This document shows positions 17,068 through 47,695 of a stretch of DNA of 64,000 nt, piece after piece. The stretch's first letter is position 1. Each line of letters opens with the position of its first letter. The position numbers and the translations under genes were made by a program. The stretch covers positions 1 to 64,000 of the forward strand of contig JAFUCL010000005.1 in NCBI GenBank assembly GCA_017459725.1, in the 5' to 3' direction. The notes beneath the pieces are model-generated. The model saw only the letters and a list, made by a program, of their open reading frames with translations. It was not told the origin of the DNA and did no database searches. The DNA comes from Solobacterium sp. (GTDB lineage Bacteria; Bacillota_I; Bacilli_A; Erysipelotrichales; Erysipelotrichaceae).

Positions 17068-17110
17068 GTGAACAGATATTTTCAGCAAATAATAAGCAAC
17101 CTGCGATCAA
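17068..17110 (+). pseudogene. 5' stub of an unknown gene truncated by the IS21 element
   Basis: GAGG (17058-17061) lies 6 bases before GTG 17068, which starts an open frame V-N-R-Y-F-Q-Q-I-I-S-N-L-R-S that meets the IS left end at 17111. Together with the promoter upstream this looks like the first 14 codons of a real gene. I could not find the rest beyond the right end of the element at 19769, so the remainder may have been deleted. Confidence 0.45.
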
Positions 17111-17140
17111 TGTGCCAACGGCGGACTTTCGGACCCAGTG

Positions 17141-17184
17141 AGTCGGAGATTCCCGGATCCACTTAGTCGGTGAATCGGATCCAC
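17141..17184. repeat. IS21 left-end internal repeats (two copies)
   Basis: Two copies of AGTCGG-n-CGGATCCAC at 17141-17162 and 17165-17184, probable IstA binding sites. The matching right-end copy is inverted. Confidence 0.65.
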
Positions 17185-17236
17185 CTAAATAAGTAAAAGA
17201 TCTGGCTCCCCATCAGATGATGAGGAGCCGGCTTCG

Positions 17237-18040
17237 TTATTGACTGTTCTTTTGCCGCTGTAATTCTGTCGGAATATCGATTTCTCGCATCGAGTTCCCT
17301 TTGATTTCAAAAGTATAGGACTTTGCGAATAAGCGATTTATGATTCCGTCTGCCAGACTGGGTGATACTGTACTCAGCCGGGTATACATCTCTGCCGGCA
17401 TAAGCTGTGAACAGATAATAAATGAGCGTGGTTTATTCTTCCGCGTTTTACTGTTGACCAGCCGATAGAGATACTCGACATCCCGCTGTTCTGCAGTCGT
17501 AAGCAGAAAATCATCGATGATGATCAGATTCGTGTTCGCCAGTTTGTTCAGGAACTTTACATACTTTCCCTTTTCATCTGCTTCCCGAAACGAATATAGA
17601 AGATCGACCATCGTGTAGTAACGGACTGTATACTGGCTTTCACACGCATTGTTTCCGAATGCACACGCAAAGAATGTTTTGCCGCAGCCGGTCGCAGAAG
17701 ACATCAGTACATTCAGGCTGCGGGAAATATAGTCATTTGTCCGAAGTTTATCGATCATCGCTATGTTGATATGACGGTCCGGGATATACAGCACATCATC
17801 AAGATCTGCCATCGGCCAATACAGCCGGGCGGCTTTCTTGTATCGTGCAGTAGTACTGTCGTCTGAAGATATCTCCTGAAGACTCGTTAATTGATCCAGA
17901 ATATCGATTGCCGGTTCAGAGTATAGCTCTCCGCTCTCATCTAATCGAATGAGTTCATCCGCCATCGTATTCATGCGGAAGTTGTGCAGGCGATTTGTTA
18001 CCGCAGTCAACTTTGCTGTGTCAGTCCTTCTTGCGCGCAT
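17237..18040 (-). CDS. istB: IS21-family helper ATPase IstB
   Basis: A 267-residue AAA+ transposition helper of the DnaC/IstB group that regulates target choice for IstA. Walker A is SSATGCGKT, in which the first glycine of the P-loop is replaced by serine; Walker B is LIIIDDF; and an arginine-finger region follows. I start at ATG 18040 because GGGGAG lies about 10 bases upstream; ATG 18061, seven codons earlier, has no ribosome binding site. It overlaps the end of istA by about 20 bases. Confidence 0.88.
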   Translation of the reverse strand: MRARRTDTAKLTAVTNRLHNFRMNTMADELIRLDESGELYSEPAIDILDQLTSLQEISSDDSTTARYKKAARLYWPMADLDDVLYIPDRHINIAMIDKLRTNDYISRSLNVLMSSATGCGKTFFACAFGNNACESQYTVRYYTMVDLLYSFREADEKGKYVKFLNKLANTNLIIIDDFLLTTAEQRDVEYLYRLVNSKTRKNKPRSFIICSQLMPAEMYTRLSTVSPSLADGIINRLFAKSYTFEIKGNSMREIDIPTELQRQKNSQ

Positions 18041-19610
18041 AATACTCCGCTCCCCGGACATGTGACTGTTCCGTATGACTATCTGTTTGTTTGGGCTGTG
18101 GGTTGGGCACAGTCAGTTCTTTTATATCTTGTCCGTTGTAGAGAATCGCTTTAATATTCCTGTAGATGGGGCGTTTATAATGTCTCAGTGCTAACTGACA
18201 GGCCTGTTCTACTCTGGGGCGAGTGTATTGGTCTGCCAGTTTTAATATGGAGCGGGCGCCGTTGTAGTACTTCTGTTCTGCACCTCCGCCGCTGAATAAC
18301 CGATCGATGACTTCATAGGTGTATGGACCATATTCTCTTGCCCACCGCCGGAAGCGGTCGCTGTTCCAGTCTCCATAACTTGAACTGTAGGGCGGAAAGT
18401 GATTGTTATCCGTCTGATAGACACCGATCTTTCCAATAACGATTTTGTGAGTGCACAGGTGCTCTGTAGCACTCCATACTTCAAGACGGTCATTGTAAAT
18501 TCGTAAGGTTACACGCTCTCCAATGTGCTGGTATGGAACGGAATAGTAATTTTTTCCGTAACTGATACAGCAGTTGTTTTGAACCATTGCCGTTTTCTTG
18601 ATGAAGTATTCATAAGGAATCGAAGGTAGCGGATTCATCTCGGCCAACTCATACTGTTGATATGCCGTCAACCTGCTTCCTTCCTTTCTCTGGAAAGGCC
18701 TGGCATTAAAACGATCGAGTTCGCGGCGAACCTCCATGTTATACTCCTCGATTGAGAAGCACTGTACATTCCGAAGGCGGGCAAGGATATGTGTTTCCAG
18801 TTTGCCCACAAGGTTCTCTACAGTCGGCTTATCATCTGGTTTACGGACCCTTGCGGGTGTGATCACCATACCATAGTGATTCGCGAAGGCTTCATAATCT
18901 GACTGTAATACTGTATCGCCGGTAATTGGATGCTTGATAATTCCGGTTTTCAGATTGTCACAGACAAGTGCACGTGTCGTGCCTCCGAAATATTCAAACA
19001 TATGGACATGAGCTGCGATCCAGTTAGGGAGTTTCATATCTGAAAACACTTCCGCGTATCCGTAGCCGCTGAACGGCAATACTCCGACGAACAGCCAGCC
19101 GGTTATGACTTCACCGGTATCCGGATCCGTCCATCGTGCCGGGTCACCTGTCCAATCGACTTCGGCTTCTTCTGCCGGTTTATGCCGGATAATCTCGGAA
19201 AAAGATTTCTTGCGCAGCGCTTTCTCAAAATAGAACTTGAACTGTGTCGGCTGGTAATAAACAAGGCCTGCCCGTTTACATTCCTCTACGTATTCGTCAT
19301 AAAGTAATGTCTTCGTAACACCAGGCTTAAGAAGTTCCGTACATAACTGTTCATAGTCCGGCATGTGGTAGATTGTTTCATGGGTTTGGGGCGACTCAAC
19401 GTAGTCTCTACGCCGAAATACCGTTTGAATTGTCTTCGAATCCATTAACAGTAAATCATCATAGTTCCATCCGTTTTCATCCATTACATCCATGACTGTC
19501 GAAACCAGATTCTTGGAGACATGCATTGTTTCTGCCAGCAGGTTGCGGGAGTAGCTGCCTGTCTCCAGGTAGCGTGCAATTTGCAAAATTCTTGAACGTT
19601 TGTCTTCCAT
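18021..19610 (-). CDS. istA: IS21-family transposase IstA
   Basis: A 529-residue DDE transposase. An N-terminal helix-turn-helix (SRNLLAETMHVSKNLVSTVM) is followed by the catalytic rve-type core: first Asp in EVDWTGD near residue 152, second in LVCDNLKT near 218, and Glu in PTVENLVGK near 256. A C-terminal Mu-transposase-like domain ends in a basic tail. GGAGGT precedes the ATG at a good distance. The frame is complete with no interruption, so the element may still be active. Confidence 0.92.
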   Translation of the reverse strand: MEDKRSRILQIARYLETGSYSRNLLAETMHVSKNLVSTVMDVMDENGWNYDDLLLMDSKTIQTVFRRRDYVESPQTHETIYHMPDYEQLCTELLKPGVTKTLLYDEYVEECKRAGLVYYQPTQFKFYFEKALRKKSFSEIIRHKPAEEAEVDWTGDPARWTDPDTGEVITGWLFVGVLPFSGYGYAEVFSDMKLPNWIAAHVHMFEYFGGTTRALVCDNLKTGIIKHPITGDTVLQSDYEAFANHYGMVITPARVRKPDDKPTVENLVGKLETHILARLRNVQCFSIEEYNMEVRRELDRFNARPFQRKEGSRLTAYQQYELAEMNPLPSIPYEYFIKKTAMVQNNCCISYGKNYYSVPYQHIGERVTLRIYNDRLEVWSATEHLCTHKIVIGKIGVYQTDNNHFPPYSSSYGDWNSDRFRRWAREYGPYTYEVIDRLFSGGGAEQKYYNGARSILKLADQYTRPRVEQACQLALRHYKRPIYRNIKAILYNGQDIKELTVPNPQPKQTDSHTEQSHVRGAEYYARKKD

Positions 19611-19725
19611 TTTCGTTCACCTCCATTTCAAGTACGAAAAAACTGCACGAATGTTTTCTCGTACAGTTCAATCATAATATGTGAAAATGAGGTATACCGA
19701 TTACTGGATCCGACATCCCGTTTTG

Positions 19726-19746
19726 GTGGATCCGTTTTTTCCGACT
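19726..19746. repeat. IS21 right-end internal repeat
   Basis: An inverted copy of the left-end repeat, reading AGTCGG-n-CGGATCCAC on the - strand. It lies 22 bases inside the right terminus. Confidence 0.6.
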
Positions 19747-19796
19747 ATGTGGCTCCGCCGCGCCGGCATTTGCAGGATATACAGTAAAGCTCAATT

Positions 19797-19802
19797 TATA
19801 AT
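19797..19802 (+). promoter_or_regulatory. Candidate -10 box of the acylation cassette
   Basis: TATAAT lies 40 bases before the MBOAT ATG and 28 bases outside the IS right end. No good -35 lies at the right distance; TTGCAG at 19770 is 21 bases away, so a promoter formed partly at the IS junction is possible. Confidence 0.35.
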
Positions 19803-19842
19803 GTTTGTGGTTACTGTATACATGTAATTTTTGGAATTTATT

Positions 19843-21438
19843 ATGAGTTTTGTGTCACTTTCTTTTATTGCTTATATATCAGTAGTGATTCTTCTGTATT
19901 TTATTGTTCCTAAAAGAATACAGTGGGTTGTATTGCTGGTATCCAGTTATGTCTTCTTTTTTATTAACAGCAAATGGCTTGTATTTCTGCTGTTTTTTGA
20001 AACATTGATAACATTTTTAACCGGTATTGCATTGGAAAGAATCCGCCTGGGAAACGAGCAGAAAATAATCAGTCTAAAAGAAGCACTTTCAAAAGAAGAG
20101 AAGAAGAAAATACAATCCAAAGGCAAAAAGGACCAGAAGAAGGTTCTTGCTGCCGGAATAATCCTGATTTTGGGTATTCTTGTGTGTCTGAAATATCATG
20201 GATTCTTTATGCGGCCTGTTAATGGTCTTGCGATGCATATGGGATTGAGTATACCGCAGTTTAAACTGCTTGTCCCAATCGGTATTTCTTTCTATTCCCT
20301 GCAAGCAATATCTTATATGGTTGATGTGTTCAGAAACAGAATTAAAGCAGATCGAAGTCTGTTACGCTTCATGCTGTTTATGTCATATTTTCCTCAGATT
20401 GTTCAAGGCCCGATACCGCGATACAAGCAGCTGGCTGGACAATTATATGAATCACATAATTTTGATTACGAACGGGCATGTTTCGGGGCACAGCTGATAC
20501 TCTGGGGTTTCATGAAAAAAATGATTCTGGCAGACCGGATTGCCATCCCAGTTTCGATGATATTTGACAATCCATTAAACTATAAAGGGCCAATGATTCT
20601 CTTGGCGGCAGTAGGGTATGGTTTCCAGGTGTATGCCGATTTTTCGGGTGGAATGGATATTGCTTCAGGGTTTTCACAGATAATCGGAATCGACCTTGAG
20701 CAGAATTTCAGGCAGCCGTATTTTTCCGAGTCTGTCGAGGAATTCTGGAGACGCTGGCATATTACACTGGGTGCTTTTATGCGGGAATATGTTTTTTATC
20801 CGCTGTCCTTGTCAAAAACTTTCACCAGGATAGGCAGATCGCTGAGAGGTATATTCGGCCCGGAAACCGGAAAGAAGATTCCACCATTGCTGGCAACCTT
20901 CATAGTTTATTTTCTGGTAGGTTTCTGGCATGGTGCGGACTGGAAGTATGTATGGTATGGAATATGGAACGGTGTATTCATCGCTTCCGGAATTCTTTTC
21001 AAAAATCAGTATGAATCAACTAAAATTAAACTGAAGATAAATGACCAGCTGTTTTCCTGGAAACTGTTCAGAATCTTAAGGACTTTTACGATTGTTTCTA
21101 TTGGCAGAATCATATCCCGTGCTTCTGATACAGCTACAGCGGTGATTATGATCAAACAAATGATGAAAAACCTGTATTATTGGTCATATCTGACAAACGG
21201 TGCTTTGCTGAAACTGGGGCTGGATACTGTTGACTGGCTAATATTGCTGGTGTCTATTGTAATCTTGCTGTTGGTTGATTATGCACATGAAAAGGGTATT
21301 TCAGTGCGAAGATGGGTGTCACAGCAAGGAAATATATTCCGGACACTGGTATATGTAGGGGCAATGATTATTGTTGTATTGCTTGGCGTATACGGACCGG
21401 GATACAGCAGTGCTGCATTTATTTATCAACAGTTCTAG
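19843..21438 (+). CDS. MBOAT family O-acyltransferase (DltB/AlgI-like)
   Basis: A 531-residue multi-pass membrane protein of the MBOAT family. The N-terminus MSFVSLSFIAYIS is typical of the AlgI/DltB-like group. FWRRWHITLGAFMREYVFYPL (quoted in part, near residues 300-320) is the family core, and the catalytic histidine lies in GFWHGADW near 365. Members carry an acyl group across the membrane onto an extracellular sugar or polymer. ATG 19843 has GGA 7 bases upstream; a TTG four codons earlier is less likely. With the carrier protein and SGNH-like gene downstream it forms a DltB-C-D-like set, but DltA is missing. The DNA is noticeably AT-rich. Confidence 0.9.
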   Translation: MSFVSLSFIAYISVVILLYFIVPKRIQWVVLLVSSYVFFFINSKWLVFLLFFETLITFLTGIALERIRLGNEQKIISLKEALSKEEKKKIQSKGKKDQKKVLAAGIILILGILVCLKYHGFFMRPVNGLAMHMGLSIPQFKLLVPIGISFYSLQAISYMVDVFRNRIKADRSLLRFMLFMSYFPQIVQGPIPRYKQLAGQLYESHNFDYERACFGAQLILWGFMKKMILADRIAIPVSMIFDNPLNYKGPMILLAAVGYGFQVYADFSGGMDIASGFSQIIGIDLEQNFRQPYFSESVEEFWRRWHITLGAFMREYVFYPLSLSKTFTRIGRSLRGIFGPETGKKIPPLLATFIVYFLVGFWHGADWKYVWYGIWNGVFIASGILFKNQYESTKIKLKINDQLFSWKLFRILRTFTIVSIGRIISRASDTATAVIMIKQMMKNLYYWSYLTNGALLKLGLDTVDWLILLVSIVILLLVDYAHEKGISVRRWVSQQGNIFRTLVYVGAMIIVVLLGVYGPGYSSAAFIYQQF

Positions 21439-21525
21439 ACTATTAATAAGTATTGATTTTGCTGTTTTCTTTCCGAAGAGGGAATATCCATTATAAAAAT
21501 GCTGTAAAGTTGGAGGAGTACACAT

Positions 21526-21753
21526 ATGGAAAAGATTCTTGAGATTTTGGAAAACATCAGGCCGGATGTTGATTTTCAAAAGGAGACGAAACTGATTGAT
21601 GATGGTGTCCTTGACTCTTTTGATATTATCTCTATTGTCAGTGAGTTCAATGATGCATTTGATATCGACATTTCAGTTGAGGAGCTTGAACCGGATAATT
21701 TCAATTCAGTAAGTGCAATGTATGAACTGATTCAGAAGTTACAGAATCGGTAA
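21526..21753 (+). CDS. Acyl carrier protein (DltC-like)
   Basis: A 75-residue acyl carrier protein. The phosphopantetheine attachment serine is Ser31 in GVLDSFDIIS, and FDIDISVEEL matches helix III of ACPs. GGAG lies 11 bases before the ATG. It sits between the MBOAT gene and the SGNH-like gene, where DltC would be. In that setting it would carry the acyl or aminoacyl group delivered to MBOAT; a stand-alone activating ligase is not present in the window, so the donor enzyme must be elsewhere. Confidence 0.9.
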   Translation: MEKILEILENIRPDVDFQKETKLIDDGVLDSFDIISIVSEFNDAFDIDISVEELEPDNFNSVSAMYELIQKLQNR

Positions 21754-21776
21754 TAAGCCAGTTCTCAATAGTTAAT

Positions 21777-23858
21777 ATGACGAAGAAAGTCTCTCGTATT
21801 TTTTGTGTTGGCTTAGTAGGTTTTTTTGTTCTCTGTTTCTTTACAGAATTGTTAACACCCACTTGGCCGTCATGGAATAATGACAATACAGTTAAAGGAA
21901 TATATAAAGAACCAGAGAATCATTTGCAGGTTCTCTTTTTGGGGACCAGCCGGGTTATCACCGGAATCTCTCCTATAGAACTCTACGACCGTTATGGTAT
22001 CTGCAGCTATAATCTGGCGACAGAGCAGCAGCCGCTTATTGCTTCATATTACTGGCTAAAAGAAGTGCACAGGCTGCACAAAGAATCATTGAACACTGTG
22101 GTTCTGGATGTATCTTTTCTGCTGAAAAAAGATTCCGTTTCGGAAAAATCAAAAGTCTTTGCAGAAAAAGCACTCACTCATATGAAACTGTCAAATGTGA
22201 AGATTGAAGCTTTAAAAGCATGTGAAGATCTTTACGATGATTTCAAGGCAATTGATTATCTTGTCCCTTTGCGCCGGTATCATTCCCGTTGGTATACTGT
22301 GACAGATTATGATTTTGATGGTTTGCTGAACAAGAATAACAGTTTTTATACAAGAGGGCAGAGCATTACATATACACTGTCTTTGGACAGTATTAAAGAA
22401 AGCACACGCAATGTTCCAAATTACAGTCTGACGGATTCATTGGATTATTCTCCCGAAGAATATGAAACAGAGTGGGATGAGGCCAACAGAAAGATATTGG
22501 ACGAAATTGTCAATTTTTGTGATGCAAACGCTCTTAATCTTGTACTGATCAGGCTTCCCAAAACTACAGATGATCTGCAGCATGATGCAATTAATTATCT
22601 GGCAGAGCAATATAATGTGCCATTTATTGATTTCAATGATCCGGTTCTGCAGAAACAAGTGAATCTGTCATTCAGTTATGATTTTATGGATAACTCCCAT
22701 CCGAATGTTTTCGGTGCTGAAAAAATAACTGATTATGTCGGAAAATACATTGTGGACCATTATTCTCTCAGTGACATACGCAATAATGAAGAATATAAGT
22801 ATCTTCGTGAACAGCGGGAGCAGTTCAAAGTTGTCGAAGAAAATATGGAACTGCTGAGATGTACAACACTGGAGGAATATCTCAAGGTAATTGATCGTGA
22901 TCGTTATACAGTATTTGTCTCTGTAAGGGATGAGGCTTCTGAAGGACTGTCTGAAGGGATGCGTGCTGCATTGGCGGATTACGGCTTTGTCCAATTCTCC
23001 GAAATTGACTATCGTGAAGGGTATGTCGGTATACGTGACAGAGGAAGGATACTTGTTGATGAGGTTTCGATAGATCCTGGATATGAGGTGTTCGCAGACG
23101 GTAAATGTGATGCTGATGGGCACTTTTTTCTGAATGGTGTTTATCAGGCATGCTCACAAAACGGTGAAAAAATAGAAGAACCCGAAGGATTTCTTTCATC
23201 AGGTATAAGTGCTTTTTCTGTCAAGAGCGGAGGTTTGTACGGTGGCTGTATCAGCTCAATCAGAATAGGAAACACAGAGTATTCGGATAATAAGCTGGGT
23301 ATCAACTTTGTGGTTTATGATAACAAACTGGAGATGGTAATAGATCAGAGCACTTTTGATACCCATTCGGGTGCGGCAAGCAGAAGTGATTTGTCTCTGT
23401 CACGGGAATACCTTGTACGCACTGATGCTGCTGTGCTGGATGCATCTTTCTCTGTCGGGGAGTTAATAAAACGTGCTCTGGATAAAGATTATTCAGTTCT
23501 TGTTGTGGGCACATCTACAGATTCTGCAAACGGACTGAGTGAGATTGATTATAAAATGCTTGCAGAATCGGGTTTTGAGGGCAGTGAATTGCTCACAGCG
23601 CAGCCATATTTGGCAATCTTTGAAGATGGAAGATTATCTACTGAAATGACTGCTTCTCCGGATGAAAGCTTGATTATGCCAAACAAACACCCAGGATTCT
23701 TTACGTTTTGGATACGGAAAGATCCCGGGGAGAGTGCACGGATGGCAATAGGTGACAGTACTTACTCAGTCGATGAAAATCAAATATTTGTATTGGTATA
23801 CGACAGAGAGACAAATGAAACTGTTGCTGCCAAATGGTTTGCGTTCAATTCGGATTAG
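21777..23858 (+). CDS. SGNH-like (DltD/AlgJ-type) protein with C-terminal ILEI-like repeats
   Basis: A 693-residue protein with an N-terminal membrane anchor (residues about 8-26) and an extracellular SGNH/GDSL-like domain to about 345: block I reads FLGTSRVITGISPIEL and the block V Asp/His pair is in DFMDNSHPN. This domain is the usual partner of MBOAT acyltransferases. The C-terminal half looks like two copies of an ILEI/PANDER-like fold: one around 375-450 (RYTVFVSVRDEASEGLS) and one around 560-640 (YSVLVVGTSTDSANGLS), each followed by a GYVGIRDRGR or PYLAIFEDGR strand. No ribosome binding site is obvious; the gene starts 23 bases after the ACP stop. Confidence 0.8.
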   Translation: MTKKVSRIFCVGLVGFFVLCFFTELLTPTWPSWNNDNTVKGIYKEPENHLQVLFLGTSRVITGISPIELYDRYGICSYNLATEQQPLIASYYWLKEVHRLHKESLNTVVLDVSFLLKKDSVSEKSKVFAEKALTHMKLSNVKIEALKACEDLYDDFKAIDYLVPLRRYHSRWYTVTDYDFDGLLNKNNSFYTRGQSITYTLSLDSIKESTRNVPNYSLTDSLDYSPEEYETEWDEANRKILDEIVNFCDANALNLVLIRLPKTTDDLQHDAINYLAEQYNVPFIDFNDPVLQKQVNLSFSYDFMDNSHPNVFGAEKITDYVGKYIVDHYSLSDIRNNEEYKYLREQREQFKVVEENMELLRCTTLEEYLKVIDRDRYTVFVSVRDEASEGLSEGMRAALADYGFVQFSEIDYREGYVGIRDRGRILVDEVSIDPGYEVFADGKCDADGHFFLNGVYQACSQNGEKIEEPEGFLSSGISAFSVKSGGLYGGCISSIRIGNTEYSDNKLGINFVVYDNKLEMVIDQSTFDTHSGAASRSDLSLSREYLVRTDAAVLDASFSVGELIKRALDKDYSVLVVGTSTDSANGLSEIDYKMLAESGFEGSELLTAQPYLAIFEDGRLSTEMTASPDESLIMPNKHPGFFTFWIRKDPGESARMAIGDSTYSVDENQIFVLVYDRETNETVAAKWFAFNSD

Positions 23859-23948
23859 TATAAACAGCATGCGGAACCCAGAACTTGTTTTTATGCCGGA
23901 AGACAACAGAAAAGAGTAAATTGCAGTTGTTTAGTCAATGACAAAAAC

Positions 23949-24152
23949 TGCTGACAGCGGACTTTTGGACTCAGTGAGTCGGAAATATCCGAATCCACTT
24001 TGCCGGCCTTTTGGCTTAACCAAGATATACAAATGAATTGACTCCCCATCGAATGATGAGGAGTCAGTTTTGTTATTGACTGTTCTTCTTGCGCTGTAAT
24101 TCAGATGGGATAATGATTCCGCTCATCGGGTTAGCATTAAAGTTGAATCACT
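23949..24152 (-). mobile_element. Remnant left end of a second IS21-family element
   Basis: From 23949 the sequence follows the left end of the complete IS21 copy closely: the CGGACTTT, GAGTCGG and ATCCACTT segments, then GACTCCCCATC and the istB 3' end, with many substitutions. On the - strand the last codons read P-S-E-L-Q-R-K-K-N-S-Q-stop, against P-T-E-L-Q-R-Q-K-N-S-Q-stop in the complete copy. Homology ends about 24152, where the frame meets a stop. The divergence shows it is an old copy of a related element, not a fresh duplicate. It faces the same way as the full copy. Confidence 0.75.
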
Positions 24153-24219
24153 CATTTTTAGAAAGTATTATATTAACGTTGAATATTTGTGTTACTGAGA
24201 TTTAGACGGAGGTATGTAA

Positions 24220-27200
24220 ATGAAACGGTTCTGCAGTATTATCCTGGCGTTTTTCATTGTGTTTACGGGGTTAACAAACAGGGTGCCCGTATATGCGGAT
24301 GATGTATCCGCACAGATCAGTGCTCTGGAAACAAGGCTGGGTGAATTGCAGGCTCAGAAGAATGAAGGAGTTCTTGGTTTCTACCGCAGTAACGGAACAT
24401 ATGACACTGTTATTGACATGATCAATAAAGGCAATGAACTTGCCGGTAGGGAAATCACCCAGATTGGAAATGAGCAGGATGCCACTGCTATACCCAATGT
24501 GCTGCGTGCTTTGGATCTCATTGAAGAGGGTAACAGTCTGAGGGCAGCGGATGAGCACAGGCAAGAAAATCCACTTGTACCTCTGCAGGTAAGTGATTAT
24601 CTTATGGCAATGGCACAGATTCAGACCAATCATACAGCCGCAGTGGAATTTGCTCACTGGGAAGGACTTAAGGAAGCCGGTTACTTTTATTTTTCCGGAG
24701 AGAATATTGCCGCAGCTTCTTATCCAGAATATGATCCGTTTGAAGGATGGTATTACGACGAAAAGCAGGCTTATGATGCATATTACGAGGCTTACCCGAA
24801 TGCAACAGCGGAAGAGGTAGATGCGAATGCAGTCAATTATTATAAAGAAAAATTCGCTCAGGAAATATCTGACGGCTCAAAACCGGATGTTCATTCGGTC
24901 GGGCATTATACGAATCTGATAAACCCTAAAAAAGAAAACAACACGAAAAAAGCAGATCTGACAGGGCTAGGCTACAGCCAGTACGCAGGAACCGGAATGG
25001 GACATACATATGCGCAGGAATTTTTGCGGAGTGATTATCCATCCGGCGGAATAAACTCTAACGTTTTTGACTACGGCACGGTGTATTCCGTCGGTGAATA
25101 CAAAAACATGCTGCAGACATATATTACCAATCTCGATAATGAAATCGGTGCAACGGAAGCGGAACTGGAAAGACTGAGAGAATCTCTTAATCCACGAACA
25201 GCGGATGATATTCAGGCAGTGAATGACTCTTTGACAATAACGCTGGAGCAGACTGCTTCACTAGAGTATGCTCTTCTGCCGGAAAACGGTGATTTTGCAA
25301 ATGAAGTCATTACATGGGCAGTCAATACAGAATCAGCGGAATATGATGCGTGCGTAGAAGTTGATCAGAATGGAAATGTAACACCATTGGCTGCCGGTAT
25401 TGCCGAAGTGACAGCGACAATCAAAAACGGTAAACAGGCTGTGTATCATGTAACCGTCCTTACGGAAGCTGTTACATATGCATATGCTGTGATTGATGAT
25501 GCGGGGAAAATGGTCTTCTTCCGCAGTGCTGAAGAGTATACAGGGGCTGAGGGAACTTATTCAGACGTTAATGGTACGGAGTACAGTGGCTCATTGTATA
25601 AAGACTTCGAAAATGGTTATGAGACTCTTCCTTGGTCTTCCGACCGCGGCAGAGTAAAGGTTGTAAGAGTAGCAGAAGGACAGACAATCAAGCCGGTAAC
25701 GATGGGTGCCTGGTTCAGTGTTTCAAATTATCTCAGACCCGGATGGCCACCAGTCGGTATTGAAGAATTCTACGGCGAAGGATTTGATACAAGCAATACT
25801 GAGAATATGGGTTCGTTGTTCAGATCATGCCAAAAACTGAAATATGTTGATCTTAGTGCTTTTGATACATTTGCTGTAGCTGATTCAATCGGAACAGCGC
25901 AAGTTTCCGGAATGAATGATATGTTCAGTGGCTGTGAGAATCTTGAAACCGTTGTCCTTGGCAGAAACTTCACATTCAAAACGGATACACAGTTCCCGTC
26001 AGGATTATGGAGAAATGAAGAACTTGGACTGACCAGATCAACTGAAGAACTGACACAGGGATACAATACTGAGTGGGCCGGTACATGGAAGAAGCTGAAT
26101 CCGGTTACTTCACTGACACTGAATAAGACTGCTGTTTCATTGGGGCCGGAGGATGAAGATACGCTGCAGGTAACAGTTCTTCCGGAAGATGCAACTGATA
26201 AAACAGTCATCTGGTCTTCTTCGGACAGTTCCGTTGTATCTGTTAATGATCAGGGTGTAATCACAGCTGTTAATGCTGGCGAGGCAACAATCACTGTTAC
26301 GGCGGCGGACGGCAGTGGTGTTTCTGCCGAGTGCGCAGTGACAGTAGATGAACGGGTTTATTCACTCGTAATTCACAATCAGGAAAGCAGCAATGATATC
26401 AGTAGCGTTGATTTCGACCATATAACAGAAGGCAATGCGGTTGAACCCATCACACTGGTCGTTGAAAATACCGGCAACAGCACATTATCTTTCTATGATA
26501 GTGACAGTAATCTGTCTTTTACGGATAGCAACGGTATATTTGGCACAGCACTGAACGCATTGATACTTCACCCCGGAGAAAGTGCAGACCTGATTATTGC
26601 AGTTGACGATCCGGAATTGCTGAGCGTCGGTACTTACCGCAATGAACTGATCATCGAAGATGATGAGTCCTTTGTACAGAAACGGATTTCCTTACAGCTG
26701 ATTGTCGATCCGGTACTTGTTTCGTCAATCGTACCTGCGCTGGGTGAGTATGAGCTGCATACAGGAGAAGAGGTGCAGTTGTCTGTCAATGTGCTCCCTG
26801 AGAACGCCGCAAATAAGACGTTTTCTTATTCTTCCTCAAATACAAGTGTTGCAGGTGTGGATGAAACCGGACTGATTCATGCGAACGGAAATGGTGAGGC
26901 AGTTATTACCGTAAGTGCCAATGACGGCTCAGGCGTTCGGGCAGAAATCAATGTCATTGTAACAACACTCGTCAATTCACTGAGTTTTAAAAAGGCTGAG
27001 ATCACTTTGCCTGCAGGAAGTATTGAAACACTGCAGGTCACGGTTCAGCCTGCAACAGCCTCAAATAAAGAATTGTCATTCAGTACATCAGATGCTTCTG
27101 TTGCAACTGTAGACAGCAAAGGCAAGGTAAAGGCAGTAAAAGAAGGATCTGCATTCATCACTGCATATGCGACAGATGAAAGCGGTGTCTATGCTACTTG

Positions 27201-28050
27201 CCGTGTTACAGTCACACCATTGATCAGGCTTAACGGCGAAGTAATATTCAATGAAGGAGAAGTCTCATACAAAGGGAAAACACCGTATGTAATCTATAAC
27301 GGGAACGAATACAGACCTGCCGTTACCGTAACGAATAAGGAAAACGGAGATGTGATTGACCCTGCGTATTATGATGTGACATATATCAATAACATCAATC
27401 CGGGTACCGGAAGGGTGAATGTAACATTTAAAGGAGATTACGCGGGTAAAGCAACGGCTACTTTCAAGATTTATCTTCCTGCGACAACCGAAACAACGAT
27501 TGAGAATACCAGTAACGGAATTTATCTGACCTGGGCACCTGTGGAAGGAGCAAAGGGATATGTGATCTACAGACGTGCATGGAATCTGGTATCAGCTGGA
27601 TGGACAAAGTTTGAGAGATGGAACAATACAGCAGACACGGAGTGGACGGATACGAAGGTATATGCCGGTACAAGATATCAGTATGGAGTAAAGGCGTACT
27701 TTGACGATCCGATGGACAACTACAATCTGGGTGAAGTAGGACCGCTGAAGACGACGGTACGTATAACAACACGCAAACTGAATTCAGTTACAGCTGGCAA
27801 TAAACAGATGACCGTGAAGTGGACACCGTCAAAGGTATTCACGGGTTATCAGATCAAATATGCAACAGATGCGGGATTTACAAAGAATGTAAAAACCGTC
27901 AGAATAACAGATGCTGCGAAATCTTCTGAGGTAATCAAAAACCTGGTATCAGGACAGACATACTATGTGACGATACGTTCGTATCATGTCTTTGAAGGAA
28001 TGACATACTATGGTGGTTGGTCAGAAGCCAGAAATACAAAAGTAAAGTAA
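24220..28050 (+). CDS. Large secreted protein: CAP, BspA-like, Big2 and Fn3-like domains
   Basis: A 1276-residue surface or secreted protein. After the signal peptide (1-27, VYADD) come a short coiled coil, a CAP/SCP-like domain (about 110-310; HTAAVEFAHWEG, GENIAA, GHTYAQEF) and a first Ig-like strand set (330-415). A BspA-like/DUF285 region follows (about 510-620; GEGFDTSNTENMG and MNDMFSGCENL), then three Big2 Ig-like domains (about 625-708, 834-917, 917-998) separated by an ASH-like domain (709-831). A YNGNEY...DYxVTYxNN-type domain (1000-1090) and two Fn3-like domains end the protein. No anchor motif follows. A likely adhesin. GGAGGT precedes the ATG. Confidence 0.82.
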   Translation: MKRFCSIILAFFIVFTGLTNRVPVYADDVSAQISALETRLGELQAQKNEGVLGFYRSNGTYDTVIDMINKGNELAGREITQIGNEQDATAIPNVLRALDLIEEGNSLRAADEHRQENPLVPLQVSDYLMAMAQIQTNHTAAVEFAHWEGLKEAGYFYFSGENIAAASYPEYDPFEGWYYDEKQAYDAYYEAYPNATAEEVDANAVNYYKEKFAQEISDGSKPDVHSVGHYTNLINPKKENNTKKADLTGLGYSQYAGTGMGHTYAQEFLRSDYPSGGINSNVFDYGTVYSVGEYKNMLQTYITNLDNEIGATEAELERLRESLNPRTADDIQAVNDSLTITLEQTASLEYALLPENGDFANEVITWAVNTESAEYDACVEVDQNGNVTPLAAGIAEVTATIKNGKQAVYHVTVLTEAVTYAYAVIDDAGKMVFFRSAEEYTGAEGTYSDVNGTEYSGSLYKDFENGYETLPWSSDRGRVKVVRVAEGQTIKPVTMGAWFSVSNYLRPGWPPVGIEEFYGEGFDTSNTENMGSLFRSCQKLKYVDLSAFDTFAVADSIGTAQVSGMNDMFSGCENLETVVLGRNFTFKTDTQFPSGLWRNEELGLTRSTEELTQGYNTEWAGTWKKLNPVTSLTLNKTAVSLGPEDEDTLQVTVLPEDATDKTVIWSSSDSSVVSVNDQGVITAVNAGEATITVTAADGSGVSAECAVTVDERVYSLVIHNQESSNDISSVDFDHITEGNAVEPITLVVENTGNSTLSFYDSDSNLSFTDSNGIFGTALNALILHPGESADLIIAVDDPELLSVGTYRNELIIEDDESFVQKRISLQLIVDPVLVSSIVPALGEYELHTGEEVQLSVNVLPENAANKTFSYSSSNTSVAGVDETGLIHANGNGEAVITVSANDGSGVRAEINVIVTTLVNSLSFKKAEITLPAGSIETLQVTVQPATASNKELSFSTSDASVATVDSKGKVKAVKEGSAFITAYATDESGVYATCRVTVTPLIRLNGEVIFNEGEVSYKGKTPYVIYNGNEYRPAVTVTNKENGDVIDPAYYDVTYINNINPGTGRVNVTFKGDYAGKATATFKIYLPATTETTIENTSNGIYLTWAPVEGAKGYVIYRRAWNLVSAGWTKFERWNNTADTEWTDTKVYAGTRYQYGVKAYFDDPMDNYNLGEVGPLKTTVRITTRKLNSVTAGNKQMTVKWTPSKVFTGYQIKYATDAGFTKNVKTVRITDAAKSSEVIKNLVSGQTYYVTIRSYHVFEGMTYYGGWSEARNTKVK

Positions 28051-28170: not shown

Positions 28171-29139
28171 GTGTCGGTGCCGGATGATCCTTTACGTGAA
28201 AAGACGGATACAATTATTCGGACTGCATCCACCCGCATGAACAGGTGCGGTTATTCTATCAAGGGATTAAGAAAGAGAGGAAATGTATACAGACATGTCC
28301 GGGTATACGAATGGGATCTGTATACACTGAATGCTATGTTTGTCATTAACAGCCATGATGAGCTGAAAGACCTTATTGCGGATACCAAAAAGAGAATCGT
28401 GAACATCCGGAAGAACAATACACAGATGATCAGTGCCTTTGATACCGCTGTGACCGAGGGACGGGTATATGGTGAAGTGTGTGATGACGGCCTTCTGGTT
28501 TATGTCAGTCAAAATACTTTTACAGATGTTTACTATTACTGGAAACGGGATGCTCTTTTGCCTATTATTACAGGCATAGTCAAACCGGTGATATCGTGTA
28601 CGGTAAGAGCAGGCAGTGCAGATGATGAAGAAAAATTTCTCTTGTCGTCGGGATTTGAATTGTATCGTACAAATGTACAGGTCAAAGCCGAAATCAAGAG
28701 CAAATATACTGACAATATATACAGTTCGGATTATGCCGTCATAACTAAGGATACGAAAGAGTATTATGATCAGGCAGCAGCACTGTGGGAGGAATATCTA
28801 GATCAGTTTGATGTTCCATTTGAGCATTTGCATCCGAACGATAATCATCATTTGATCTGCGCTGTAAATCAGAATAATAAGGTAATCGGTGTACATTGGT
28901 GGCAGAATCATGGACGTACGAGTGAGGGTAGGCATACGGCTGTGTCTGCTGACTGCAGAAAGAAAGGCATAGCTTCCTCTTTGATCAAACAGTGGTTGTG
29001 TGATGCGGGAAGCGCAGGGGCATTAAATGCCGAAACCTGGATATGTACCGAAAACTGCAATTCCCTGCATGTATACAGCAGAGCAGGATTTACAATGAAT
29101 CAGAGAATTGCAAAGCAATACACTCCAAGCAATTACTGA
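28171..29139 (+). CDS. GNAT-like acetyltransferase, 5' end uncertain
   Basis: Up to 322 residues. The C-terminal third is GNAT-like: VIGVHWWQNHG, then AVSADCRKKGIASSLIKQW, which carries an acetyl-CoA loop of the K-K-G-I-A form, and NSLHVYSRAGF. The N-terminal two thirds may be a degenerate second GNAT half. The start is unclear. The frame opens after a stop at 28165 with GTG codons at 28171 and 28177 and ATG at 28237, none with a ribosome binding site. Another frame just upstream (VAYEDEIIRLTDADQ, from about 28129) also looks coding, so a frameshift or a truncated 5' end is possible. Confidence 0.5.
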   Translation: MSVPDDPLREKTDTIIRTASTRMNRCGYSIKGLRKRGNVYRHVRVYEWDLYTLNAMFVINSHDELKDLIADTKKRIVNIRKNNTQMISAFDTAVTEGRVYGEVCDDGLLVYVSQNTFTDVYYYWKRDALLPIITGIVKPVISCTVRAGSADDEEKFLLSSGFELYRTNVQVKAEIKSKYTDNIYSSDYAVITKDTKEYYDQAAALWEEYLDQFDVPFEHLHPNDNHHLICAVNQNNKVIGVHWWQNHGRTSEGRHTAVSADCRKKGIASSLIKQWLCDAGSAGALNAETWICTENCNSLHVYSRAGFTMNQRIAKQYTPSNY

Positions 29140-38451: not shown

Positions 38452-39536
38452 GTGAGCAATTTCAGACTCTTGTCAAAGCGGAGATCAAACAAAAACAACA
38501 GTATTGAATTCCTCCGGTTTGTTCTCTGTGTTGTTGTGTTTCTGCATCATGCCGGGCACGCAAACAGAACACATATATTCCGGGGCGGATACCAGGCGGT
38601 TGATGTTTTCTTTGTAATCAGCGGAATGTTTCTGATGAACCATTTTCAGAAACGGGGAGTGCCTGAAAGAAGCAGTCCTGAACGGAAACTGTACGGTATT
38701 TTTGGCATCGTATCAGACGCTGCATGCCGGCATATGTATTTGCCTGGTTATTGAACTTGCTCACCAGGTCAGTTGTTCTTGGTGAATACGATCCCGGTTA
38801 CGGTATAATGAGGGGGTTCTGGGAGCTGGTTCTGCTGAAATGTGCAGGACTTGGTAGAGGTTTTGCGATTAACAATGTCGGCTGGTACGTCAGCGCACTG
38901 TGTCTTGCATCTTTGCCGATTTACTGGATTCTGTGCAGGCTTGAAAACAAAGGGCATACGGATAAATATACATTATTTGCAGCACCGGTGATTTTTGCTT
39001 TGTGTGCTGTATATATGCTCATGGGAAAAGGCAGCTTCTGGTACTGGACACAGCCGGCGGTATTTCTGACCTTTGGTTTCATACGGGCATTCGGGGATAT
39101 GGGTATCGGCTGTACTGCGGCTGCTGTAATCCGTCGGCTGAACGAACGGCTTCAGCCTTCGAAAATGCGTGATTTCCTGGCAACCGTATTTGAAGGAGCC
39201 GGATGGCCGTTGATTATTGCACATATGTATTTCTGTTCCGGTTACAGTGATGCGGCTGTACCGGTGACTGCAGCGTGTCTGCTGATCAGCATGAGTGTTA
39301 ACAACAGTTACATTAAACGCCTGGTCAATTGCCGGATCAGTACGGTTCTTGGATATTACAGCTATCCCGTTTTCCTGAACCAGATGCCTGCCATCATGAT
39401 GCTGACACCGAAGACGGAAGCATACGGTACTGCTCTGTCATCATTGATTATTTTTATGATACTTTTTGTATTCAGCATATGCAGTGATACTGCAGTTAAC
39501 GGTCTGTGCAGACTTGCAGACCGGAAACGGTCATGA
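38452..39536 (+). pseudogene. Acyltransferase-3 family protein, frameshifted
   Basis: The 5' part (from GTG 38452, after AAGGAG) reads FLRFVLCVVVFLHHAGHA and GYQAVDVFFVISGMFLMNHF, the N-terminus of an acyltransferase-3 (OafA/WecH-like) membrane enzyme. Its frame ends at 38754. The rest continues in another frame from about 38682 (R-Y-F-W-H-R-I-R-R-C-M-P-A-Y-V-F-A-W), complete to 39536. Restoring one C in TACGG near 38693 gives K-L-Y-R-Y-F-W-H and joins the two frames, so a single-base deletion is the simplest cause. The product would be a roughly 360-residue membrane O-acetyltransferase of surface sugars. Confidence 0.8.
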
Positions 39537-45077: not shown

Positions 45078-46349
45078 ATGAGTGAAAGAACAGAAGCTAT
45101 TAAACTCACCGGTATTACGAAGGAATACAGACTAGGTGAAATCGGCAGCGGCACACTCCAGGGAGATATCAAGGAGTGGCGCGAAAGACGGAAGAACAAA
45201 GGACAGGTCACAAAACGCAAAGGATCTTTCCTGGCCCTTGATCATATTGATCTGACTGTATACGAAGGGGAAGCGCTCGGTATTATCGGTCATAACGGTG
45301 CCGGCAAGTCAACCATGCTGAAGCTGATCAGCCGCATAACTGCACCGACGGAAGGAACGATTGATATCCGCGGCAGGGTGACATCCATGCTTGAAGTCGG
45401 TGCCGGTTTCCACGGTGAAATGACAGGCCGGGAGAACATCTATCTCAACGGTGCCATCCTTGGTATGAGCCGTAAGGAAATCGATGCCAAGATGGATGAA
45501 ATCATACAGTTTGCGGAAGTGGCGGATTTCATTGATACACCCGTGAAACGGTATTCCAGCGGCATGTATGTGAAGCTGGCATTCTCTGTGGCGGCACATC
45601 TGGACAGTGAAATCATGATCACCGATGAAGTGCTGGCTGTAGGGGATGCGGCTTTCCAGAAAAAGTGTATCCAGAAGATGCGCAGCGAAGTCATGCAGGA
45701 AGGCAAAACGGTTCTGTATGTCTCCCACAATATGAGTACGGTAAGGGACCTTTGCACCAGGTGCATCGTCCTTGATCACGGAAAGATCGTCTTTGACGGT
45801 GATACGGAAGCGGCAATTGCAATGTATACGGGACTTGGCAGTTCGGATACGGGTGTCTATCACTTCGATGAAAGCTACCGGCCGTATGACAAATATGTGC
45901 GCAAAGTCATGCGTCTGAACATAGACTCGCTTTCCCTGGGACGGCAGGACAACAGTTTCCGTCTGCGTGAACATGCGCATATAACGGTTTCCTGCACGGC
46001 TGTCTGTCCTCTGACGGATGTACGCTTCCGTTTTGAATTCTGGTATCAGGACGGTGTGAAGGTCGGATCAATGCTGGCGGGAAACGGTGTGGACATGCAT
46101 GAAGGGAAGAATACGGTATCGGTTGATGCGGATCTTTCCCATCTTGCGGCAGGTCAGTACAGAGCAGATCTGGTTGCGTATCAGATGGATGAGCACGGTA
46201 CTGAAACAATACTGGACGGTGTGTATCCCGGCATGATTCTGAATCTGACGGATGATGCGGCCTCACCGGAATATATAGACTGGCACGGACAGTACTGGGG
46301 TGCTGTCAGACTCAATGACCTGCAGATGCAGGAGGAGGAAGCCTCATGA
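45078..46349 (+). CDS. ABC transporter ATPase with carbohydrate-binding C-terminus (Wzt-like)
   Basis: A 423-residue ATPase. Walker A GHNGAGKST is at 71-79, the signature reads YSSGM near 155 (the variant typical of Wzt/TagH exporters), and Walker B is IMITDEVLAVGD. From about residue 255 a beta-sandwich domain like Wzt-C follows; such domains recognise the terminal cap of the glycan, linking export to chain completion. Ends in ATGA overlap with the next gene. Confidence 0.9.
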   Translation: MSERTEAIKLTGITKEYRLGEIGSGTLQGDIKEWRERRKNKGQVTKRKGSFLALDHIDLTVYEGEALGIIGHNGAGKSTMLKLISRITAPTEGTIDIRGRVTSMLEVGAGFHGEMTGRENIYLNGAILGMSRKEIDAKMDEIIQFAEVADFIDTPVKRYSSGMYVKLAFSVAAHLDSEIMITDEVLAVGDAAFQKKCIQKMRSEVMQEGKTVLYVSHNMSTVRDLCTRCIVLDHGKIVFDGDTEAAIAMYTGLGSSDTGVYHFDESYRPYDKYVRKVMRLNIDSLSLGRQDNSFRLREHAHITVSCTAVCPLTDVRFRFEFWYQDGVKVGSMLAGNGVDMHEGKNTVSVDADLSHLAAGQYRADLVAYQMDEHGTETILDGVYPGMILNLTDDAASPEYIDWHGQYWGAVRLNDLQMQEEEAS

Positions 46350-47695
46350 CGAGAGTGATTACATATGGGGTATTCGATCTGTTTCATCAGGGACATATCA
46401 ATCTGCTGAAACATGCGAAGGAACTCGGCGATGAACTGATTGTTGGAATTACAACAGACCAGTATGCGTATGAAAGAGGCAAACTGACGGTCGTTGATTC
46501 ACTGGAAACCAGGATGGAGAACGTCCGCAAATGCCCGTACACAGACGAAGTGATTGTTGAGGATCACATCGGACAGAAGGTTGAGGATATCCTGAAATAC
46601 AACATTGATATCTTTGCCATCGGGGATGACTGGTTCGGAAAATTCGATTATCTGGAAGATTACTGCAAAGTGGTTTATCTGCCGCGTACTGCAGGCATTT
46701 CTTCGTCTATTTTACGTCTGGAAAAGTATCCGTATCTGCGCATGGGAATCATCGGTGCAGGAAGGATTGCACAGCGCTTCGTGAAGGAAGCCGGCTATGT
46801 GCGGGAGATACAGATCACCAGTGTATATCATCCCAATCCGGATACCTCCGCATCCCTGGCAAGATTCCTGGGACAGAATACAGCCATTGCCAAAGTGCGC
46901 ACACTGCCGAAGCTGTTTGATAACTGTGATGCGGTTTATATCGCTTCTCCGCATGATACACATTATGCCTATGCCAAAGCAGCATTGGAAGCAGGACGCC
47001 ATGTGCTGTGCGAGAAACCATTGGCACTGCGTAAAAAGGATGCAGTTGAGCTGTTCAGGCTTGCTTCGGAAAAGGGACTGGTTCTGATGGAAGGCATCAA
47101 GACAGCATACTGTCCGGGTTTCTGCCGCATGATCTCGCTGGCGCGCAGCGGTGTAATCGGGGAGATCCATGATGTGGAAGCCTCATTCACAAGACTGACA
47201 CCTCCGGGGGTGCGGGAATGGACGGATCTTAAGACAGGCGGAAGCTTTACGGAGCTTGGCAGCTATGTGCTTCTGCCGGTGATGAAACTGCTCGGAACGG
47301 ATAATCTGACCTGGCGCTTTGAATCGGTGCTGAATGCGAACGGTCTTGATACATATACAAGAGTCTATCTGCGCAGACAGGATATGCTTGCGGAAGGCAA
47401 GTGCGGTCTTGGCGTGAAGTCTGAAGGTGAACTGATCATCAGCGGTACGAAAGGCTATATCCTCGCTGAAGCTCCCTGGTGGAAGACACAGTACTACGAA
47501 GTGCGCGGAGAGAATCCTGCGTACAGACAGCGCTACAGTGCCGAATATGCCGAAGACGGTCTGCGGTATGAGATAGCGGATTTCATGTACAGAGTGCAGG
47601 GACATGCCGGACGTGAGGATAAACTGACACCGGTAGAGTCCGCAAAGATGGCGGAAATCATGGAGGATTTCCTGGCCGGGAGGAATAAGGGATGA
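46346..47695 (+). CDS. Fused cytidylyltransferase (TagD-like) and Gfo/Idh/MocA oxidoreductase
   Basis: A 449-residue two-domain enzyme. Residues 1-128 are a glycerol-3-phosphate-type cytidylyltransferase: YGVFDLFHQGH holds the HxGH motif (14-17), and RTAGISSS (114-121) matches the RTxGISTT signature. Residues 131-445 are an NAD(P)-dependent oxidoreductase: GIIGAGRIAQ at 134-143 and EKP at 223-225. By analogy with TarI/TarJ or Bcs1-type reductase-cytidylyltransferase pairs, it may reduce a keto-sugar phosphate and link the polyol phosphate to CMP. The families here differ from those known pairs. Coupled by overlap on both sides. Confidence 0.82.
   Translation: MTRVITYGVFDLFHQGHINLLKHAKELGDELIVGITTDQYAYERGKLTVVDSLETRMENVRKCPYTDEVIVEDHIGQKVEDILKYNIDIFAIGDDWFGKFDYLEDYCKVVYLPRTAGISSSILRLEKYPYLRMGIIGAGRIAQRFVKEAGYVREIQITSVYHPNPDTSASLARFLGQNTAIAKVRTLPKLFDNCDAVYIASPHDTHYAYAKAALEAGRHVLCEKPLALRKKDAVELFRLASEKGLVLMEGIKTAYCPGFCRMISLARSGVIGEIHDVEASFTRLTPPGVREWTDLKTGGSFTELGSYVLLPVMKLLGTDNLTWRFESVLNANGLDTYTRVYLRRQDMLAEGKCGLGVKSEGELIISGTKGYILAEAPWWKTQYYEVRGENPAYRQRYSAEYAEDGLRYEIADFMYRVQGHAGREDKLTPVESAKMAEIMEDFLAGRNKG

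Follow-up and report, generated by a model that had tools for sequence, protein, structure and literature searches.

Genes and motifs of the cassette

The window analyzed here, a stretch of 64,000 nucleotides from the gut bacterium Solobacterium sp. (genome G000), carries on its plus strand three intact open reading frames (ORFs) in the order MBOAT acyltransferase, carrier protein and SGNH acyltransferase. The MBOAT gene (19843–21438) codes for a protein of 531 amino acids (Pfam MBOAT, E 4.7e-14), and an in-frame TTG at 19831 is a possible alternative start. The carrier gene (21526–21753) codes for 75 amino acids with a PP-binding match over the Pfam cut-off (E 3.7e-05), and the product of the third gene (21777–23858) is a predicted membrane-anchored SGNH protein of 693 amino acids with Pfam matches to ILEI (E 6.4e-08) and, weakly, to GDSL. 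A tblastn search of the 64 kb, including the MBOAT–carrier gap and the flank with the insertion sequence (IS), revealed neither a ligase nor a ligase remnant (best E 0.98). An initial annotation, made from the sequence alone, had described a trio resembling DltB, DltC and DltD in this order and without an adjacent ligase, and the ORFs, the Pfam matches and the tblastn search confirm this.

The AlphaFold model of the MBOAT protein (pLDDT 85) retrieved DltB as the best foldseek match (6bug_C, E 1.8e-12, TM-score 0.74), and the predicted catalytic His363 (codon 20929–20931) aligns with the histidine of the DltB WHG motif. The protein ends with the hexapeptide FIYQQF (21418–21435, plus strand; residues read from the sequence), which corresponds to the FXYXXF acyl-shuttle motif, with Tyr528 as its tyrosine, fused to the acyltransferase. 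Such a shuttle was reportedly proposed in a 2023 paper. The motif is present in its strict form at the end of 58 of the 84 carrier-linked MBOAT proteins gathered, and in a relaxed form in 80 of them. The MBOAT protein PatA acylates the tyrosine of its own C-terminal hexapeptide FXYXXF, and according to the model supported for this system the acyl-tyrosine passes the group on to a serine of the partner SGNH protein; Dlt has this shuttle motif on a separate microprotein, DltX (PMC12148441). No convincing DltX-like microprotein was found in the region 19600–24300, where a simple scan mainly recovered MBOAT tails and chance matches.

Ser31 of the carrier (codon 21616–21618), the phosphopantetheine attachment site, is located within an LDSFD motif and is invariant in 14 of 14 carrier sequences, in agreement with the initial annotation, which had noted its retention. 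The best matches of the carrier in the PDB are D-alanyl carrier proteins. Its scores against the DltC equivalogs, nevertheless, are below the cut-offs, namely, 25.8 versus 52.35 bits for TIGR01688 and 42.2 versus 68 bits for NF003464.

The SGNH protein is predicted to comprise an N-terminal transmembrane helix (residues 2–26), the catalytic residues Ser58 and Asp305/His308, and a C-terminal ILEI/FAM3-like region; Ser58 and His308 are invariant in 14 sequences. Its predicted structure (pLDDT 78) matched GDSL hydrolase and TesA folds as well as PatB of Neisseria gonorrhoeae (7tjb/7tlv) in foldseek, while a sequence search of the PDB gave no match. The ILEI domain, of the FAM3/POMGnT1-stem type, covers residues 359–417 (22851–23027, plus strand; PF15711, 33.4 bits, cut-off 27). 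Since animal domains related to ILEI bind N-acetylglucosamine (PMC9802357), this domain may, by analogy, serve as a polymer-binding module.

Like the Dlt system (DltXABCD), which mediates D-alanylation of teichoic acids, the cassette combines an MBOAT protein of the DltB fold, a DltC-like carrier and an SGNH partner, and its relatives include a DltA-like ligase. It differs from Dlt in that the shuttle motif is fused to the MBOAT protein instead of being located on DltX, and in that no ligase adjoins the set. The codes of the related ligases are, moreover, unlike that of DltA. The MBOAT protein reaches only 128.5 bits against the DltB equivalog TIGR04091 (cut-off 375), and the SGNH protein has no NCBIfam match at E ≤1 and no DltD match in Pfam. 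The likeness to Dlt drawn in the initial annotation therefore applies to the MBOAT/carrier/SGNH architecture, but the set is not strictly a DltBCD set, as the DltB and DltC scores are far below the cut-offs and DltD is not recognized.

With PatA/PatB, PatA1/PatB1, AlgIJX and WssHI/CcsHI, the cassette shares the catalytic histidine of the MBOAT protein, the C-terminal FXYXXF motif and a separate membrane-anchored SGNH protein. These systems, however, are described as using acyl-CoA, and MBOAT/SGNH pathways other than Dlt were stated in 2025 to lack a carrier, evidently owing to this use of acyl-CoA (PMC12148441), whereas the cassette of the window has a dedicated carrier with an intact attachment serine. 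Descriptions of carrier-bearing MBOAT–SGNH clusters were not found in the literature searched, the coverage of which excluded most subscription journals.

Ligase co-occurrence and origin of the gene arrangement

Two queries, the carrier alignment and the genome's own DltA-like ligase, were used to search 196 genomes of the order. Cassette-type carriers, 57 in number, were detected in 51 genomes, all of which encode an AMP-forming ligase. A DltA-like ligase is located within 6 kb of 52 of the 57 carriers. If the distance is extended to about 8 kb, 54 carriers have a ligase nearby, the two added enzymes being acyl-CoA-synthetase-like; in one genome (G147) this ligase adjoins the set, in the other (G003) it is situated upstream, separated by a regulator gene and ABC genes, and the cassette lies on two contigs joined by inference. 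For the remaining three carriers, those of the window and of genomes G119 and G170, a ligase is encoded elsewhere in the genome. Both G119, a one-contig genome, and G170 show the MBOAT–carrier–SGNH order of the window, with a pair of genes for a ligase and a pyridoxal phosphate (PLP)-dependent protein 60 kb away in the former and on a separate contig in the latter. Genome G215 resembles G119 in arrangement and has its ligase on a separate contig. A wider scan yielded 80 loci, 61 of them with an MBOAT gene, and a ligase was counted by hand in 57 of these 61; among the four MBOAT loci without ligase, a contig end truncates two, and a third is again that of G003. The presence of a ligase beside nearly all carriers and in 57 of 61 MBOAT loci indicates that the cassette family is ligase-dependent and that the window is an exception. 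The proposal of the initial annotation that the set represents a ligase-free system is thus contradicted by the co-occurrence of a ligase in every carrier-bearing genome of the order, an outcome of the kind that the annotation itself had named as a refutation, and it holds solely in the sense of a local loss in the window.

The closest cassettes, found in Christensenella sp. UBA3792 (L149) and in a metagenome-assembled genome (MAG) of the Clostridia (L142), have the gene order MBOAT–ligase–GNAT–carrier–SGNH. The proteins of the window share 56% (MBOAT), 66% (carrier) and 40% (SGNH, over 680 amino acids) sequence identity with those of L149, and full-length matches to both loci are in the range of 66–67% for the carrier and 39–40% for the SGNH protein. 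In the MBOAT tree, the protein of the window is sister to that of L149 (SH-aLRT 97), and throughout its clade the carrier gene remains linked to the MBOAT gene. Relative to these orthologs, the window lacks the ligase gene between the MBOAT and carrier genes, and a homolog of the GNAT gene lies at 28171–29139 (plus strand), 4.3 kb downstream of the cassette. The displaced gene has an intact ORF, matches Acetyltransf_7 and Acetyltransf_1 in Pfam, and was connected by phmmer to the GNAT proteins of L148 (E 1.5e-36), L149 (E 2.1e-18) and L142 (E 1e-16). L148, a locus of a Lachnospiraceae MAG, is organized as MBOAT–GNAT–carrier–SGNH with the ligase on another contig, a state similar to that of the window. 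Judging from these comparisons, the cassette appears to descend from a five-gene set MBOAT–ligase–GNAT–carrier–SGNH, from which a rearrangement, presumably associated with IS21, probably removed the ligase gene and shifted the GNAT gene.

Upstream of the cassette, istB (17237–18061) and istA (18021–19610) of an IS21-family element are encoded on the minus strand (17237–19610; IstB_IS21, E 2e-32; Mu-transpos_C_2 and rve in Pfam). The element, which has terminal inverted repeats, spans approximately positions 17110–19770 and ends about 70 bases upstream of the MBOAT start. Just 3' of the SGNH gene lies what is left of another, related IS21 element, a terminal fragment (about 23949–24132, plus strand) that shares 75% identity with the left terminus of the upstream copy. 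Of the IS bracket proposed initially, the upstream side is therefore a complete element, but the downstream side is only this remnant. A recent composite transposon was considered and rejected, given the 75% identity of the downstream end and the lack of a clear target duplication on inspection by eye.

The AT-rich base use pointed out in the initial annotation was also observed, the G+C content being 39.8% in the cassette and 51% on both sides; low G+C content, however, extends over the entire stretch from about 20 to 40 kb (about 43%), so that base composition is not specific evidence for horizontal transfer of the three genes alone.

The survey also revealed variants of the cassette. In nine loci (L139, L155, L163, L164, L167, L174, L202, L214 and L127) the ligase is acyl-CoA-synthetase-like rather than DltA-like, and its gene mostly follows carrier–MBOAT or carrier–MBOAT–SGNH. 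Five loci of Bacteroidota (L143, L144, L147, L150 and L161) comprise a ligase with a DGKW-type code and a carrier but no MBOAT gene, and four of the five have a GNAT gene; the carrier module thus seems to exist without a membrane acyltransferase in these loci. The ligases of L045, L046, L050, L052, L189 and L213, always accompanied by carrier, MBOAT and SGNH genes, have the code SMSWLALDI or SMTWLALDI, which lacks the amino-binding aspartate; judged by these residues, their cargo is perhaps a non-amino acid.

Loading of the carrier and proposed route of acylation

Five AMP-binding proteins are encoded in the genome. When their sequences were read by eye, four resembled acyl-CoA synthetases; two of these four also carry a fused XRE-cupin part. 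The fifth, encoded on contig C21, is the only DltA-like ligase of the genome, and its score against the DltA model (237 bits) is below the cut-off of 559.85. A dltA homolog elsewhere in the genome, for which the initial annotation had recommended a search, is consequently present as a DltA-like gene, but not as a DltA by this threshold. The gene is part of a second cassette with a G+C content of 52% (L036, 5688–11970), ordered MBOAT–SGNH–ligase–carrier–PLP decarboxylase-like–NUDIX; its MBOAT protein and carrier are 30% and 50% identical, respectively, to those of the window. The A-domain code of the C21 ligase reads IARWLSQAS, a class accompanied by a PLP gene in 13 of 13 loci (C21 and 12 others); the code positions, set by alignment to gramicidin synthetase and by the usual ten positions, serve as a guide rather than as proof. 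The PLP protein and the ligase of C21 also match the exosortase A-associated models TIGR03099 (E 1.8e-54) and TIGR03098, respectively, but both remain below the cut-offs and travel with MBOAT and SGNH genes. Among the donors considered initially was a ligase encoded elsewhere, an option supported by the ligases in trans of G119, G170 and G215; in the present genome, the C21 ligase is the natural candidate for such a role.

No ketoacyl synthase (PF00109) was detected in the genome, while the control search was positive in 14 of 14 genomes. The two cassette carriers were the only PP-binding carriers found, and an acyl carrier protein (ACP) of fatty-acid synthesis was likewise not detected. Because of these absences, a fatty-acid ACP is unlikely as the acyl donor. 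The suggestion of the initial annotation that the donor is a fatty-acid or acetyl-type ACP, for which we found no supporting point, is contradicted for the assembled 94% of the genome, and we consider it extremely improbable. AcpS, on the other hand, has been kept. Within the genus, it is encoded in 13 of 13 carrier-bearing genomes versus 11 of 20 without carrier (Fisher p 0.004, the related genomes not being independent). The acpS gene adjoins cassettes in G081 and G150 and is located near the ligase gene in G119 and G170.

On balance, we favor the explanation that the window encodes a carrier-dependent MBOAT/SGNH cassette for acylation of a surface polymer, which has lost its ligase locally and is served by a ligase acting in trans. 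AcpS would attach phosphopantetheine to Ser31 of the carrier, and an AMP-forming ligase encoded elsewhere, with that of C21 as the only DltA-like candidate, would load an amino acid or another short acid in thioester linkage. By means of His363, the MBOAT protein would then pass the acyl group through the membrane onto its own C-terminal tail, at Tyr528 of the FIYQQF motif. From this tyrosine, Ser58 of the SGNH protein would accept the group and place it on a hydroxyl group of a wall polysaccharide, a possible ligand of the ILEI-like domain. The gene set, its motifs, the orthology, the co-occurring ligases and the missing ketoacyl synthase are sequence observations, whereas each chemical step, the ligase in trans, the cause of the ligase loss and the polymer are inferences.

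Several observations weigh against this explanation. In the orthologous cassettes the ligases have DVKW-type codes, as do those encoded in trans in G119, G170 and G215. The C21 enzyme differs from them in code and may therefore load a different acid; furthermore, it is already part of a set with a carrier, an MBOAT, an SGNH and a PLP decarboxylase-like protein. Carriers encoded beside DVK-, IAR- and LIG2-type ligases show mean similarities of 56%, 58% and 59%, respectively, to the carrier of the window, and as these values are about equal, carrier sequence neither supports nor excludes cross-charging and was discarded as a predictor of the ligase. As the assembly is 94.2% complete and divided into 137 contigs, it could lack the genuine ligase; alternatively, the three genes could have been orphaned. 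An orphan set, with an uncharged carrier and genes that are decaying or kept for another reason, would be consistent with the absence of a cognate-type ligase from the assembly, with the deviating code of the sole DltA-like ligase, and with IS21 debris on both flanks. However, the three ORFs and the GNAT gene are intact, and Ser31, His363, Tyr528, Ser58 and His308 have been kept, so that we regard this possibility as rather unlikely. That a cognate DVKW-type ligase was missed in the incomplete assembly, as might be expected from the presence of a ligase in every other carrier-bearing genome of the order, is decidedly unlikely in our view, since the search for AMP-binding proteins did not yield a fragment of such a gene although it found others.

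Direct use of acyl-CoA by the MBOAT protein, which would render the carrier dispensable, has a precedent in PatA-type MBOAT proteins, which possess the same tail and use acetyl-CoA (PMC12148441), and some MBOAT genes of the genus indeed lack a neighboring carrier gene. The lasting linkage of carrier and MBOAT genes in the clade of the window and the conservation of the attachment serine, however, make this a very improbable alternative.

Envelope acylation in gut Firmicutes and neighboring genes

Beyond the window, we are inclined, by a modest preference, to see these cassettes as a third class of MBOAT/SGNH systems for envelope acylation, widespread in gut Firmicutes, in which the ligase and carrier are Dlt-like and the fused shuttle resembles that of PatA; the set of the window would be a split member with its ligase in trans. 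Current accounts separate Dlt (carrier and DltX) from PatA-like systems (acyl-CoA and fused shuttle), and the cassettes join both halves. This wider set of cassettes is a more interesting result than the local absence of a ligase. Published DltB proteins of clostridia could have such a fused tail as well, and the class may thus not be wholly new. If our view is correct, it includes several ligase code classes, with PLP decarboxylase or GNAT partners tailoring the acid on the carrier, and acyl groups other than D-alanine are put on wall polymers. As the ligases fall into discrete code classes, the esters on the surfaces of common gut Firmicutes become testable. The genome studied here, devoid of ketoacyl synthase but retaining AcpS, offers a clean setting in which phosphopantetheine carriers have no apparent function beyond surface modification.

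The idea of the initial annotation that the set transfers an acyl group to a polymer of the cell surface is supported at the level of sequence. Downstream of the cassette, the window encodes glycosyltransferases and LicD proteins as well as a TagGH-type pair of ABC-2 transporter proteins. In G003, the MBOAT–carrier pair is located directly 5' of a galactofuranosyltransferase-like gene, a LicD gene and an ABC pair similar to that of the window. Our best guess for the target is a wall polysaccharide or a teichoic-acid-like polymer.

In the interval that separates the cassette from the displaced GNAT gene, a large secreted protein is encoded at 24220–28050; it contains a CAP domain along with several Big_2 repeats. 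An Acyltransferase-3 family protein is encoded at 38724–39536; its match begins only at profile position 83, and the gene is possibly truncated. A protein encoded at 46346–47695, adjoining the TagGH-type ABC transporter and LicD genes, unites a cytidylyltransferase-like domain with a GFO/IDH/MocA oxidoreductase, a fusion which suggests an unusual CDP-linked precursor.

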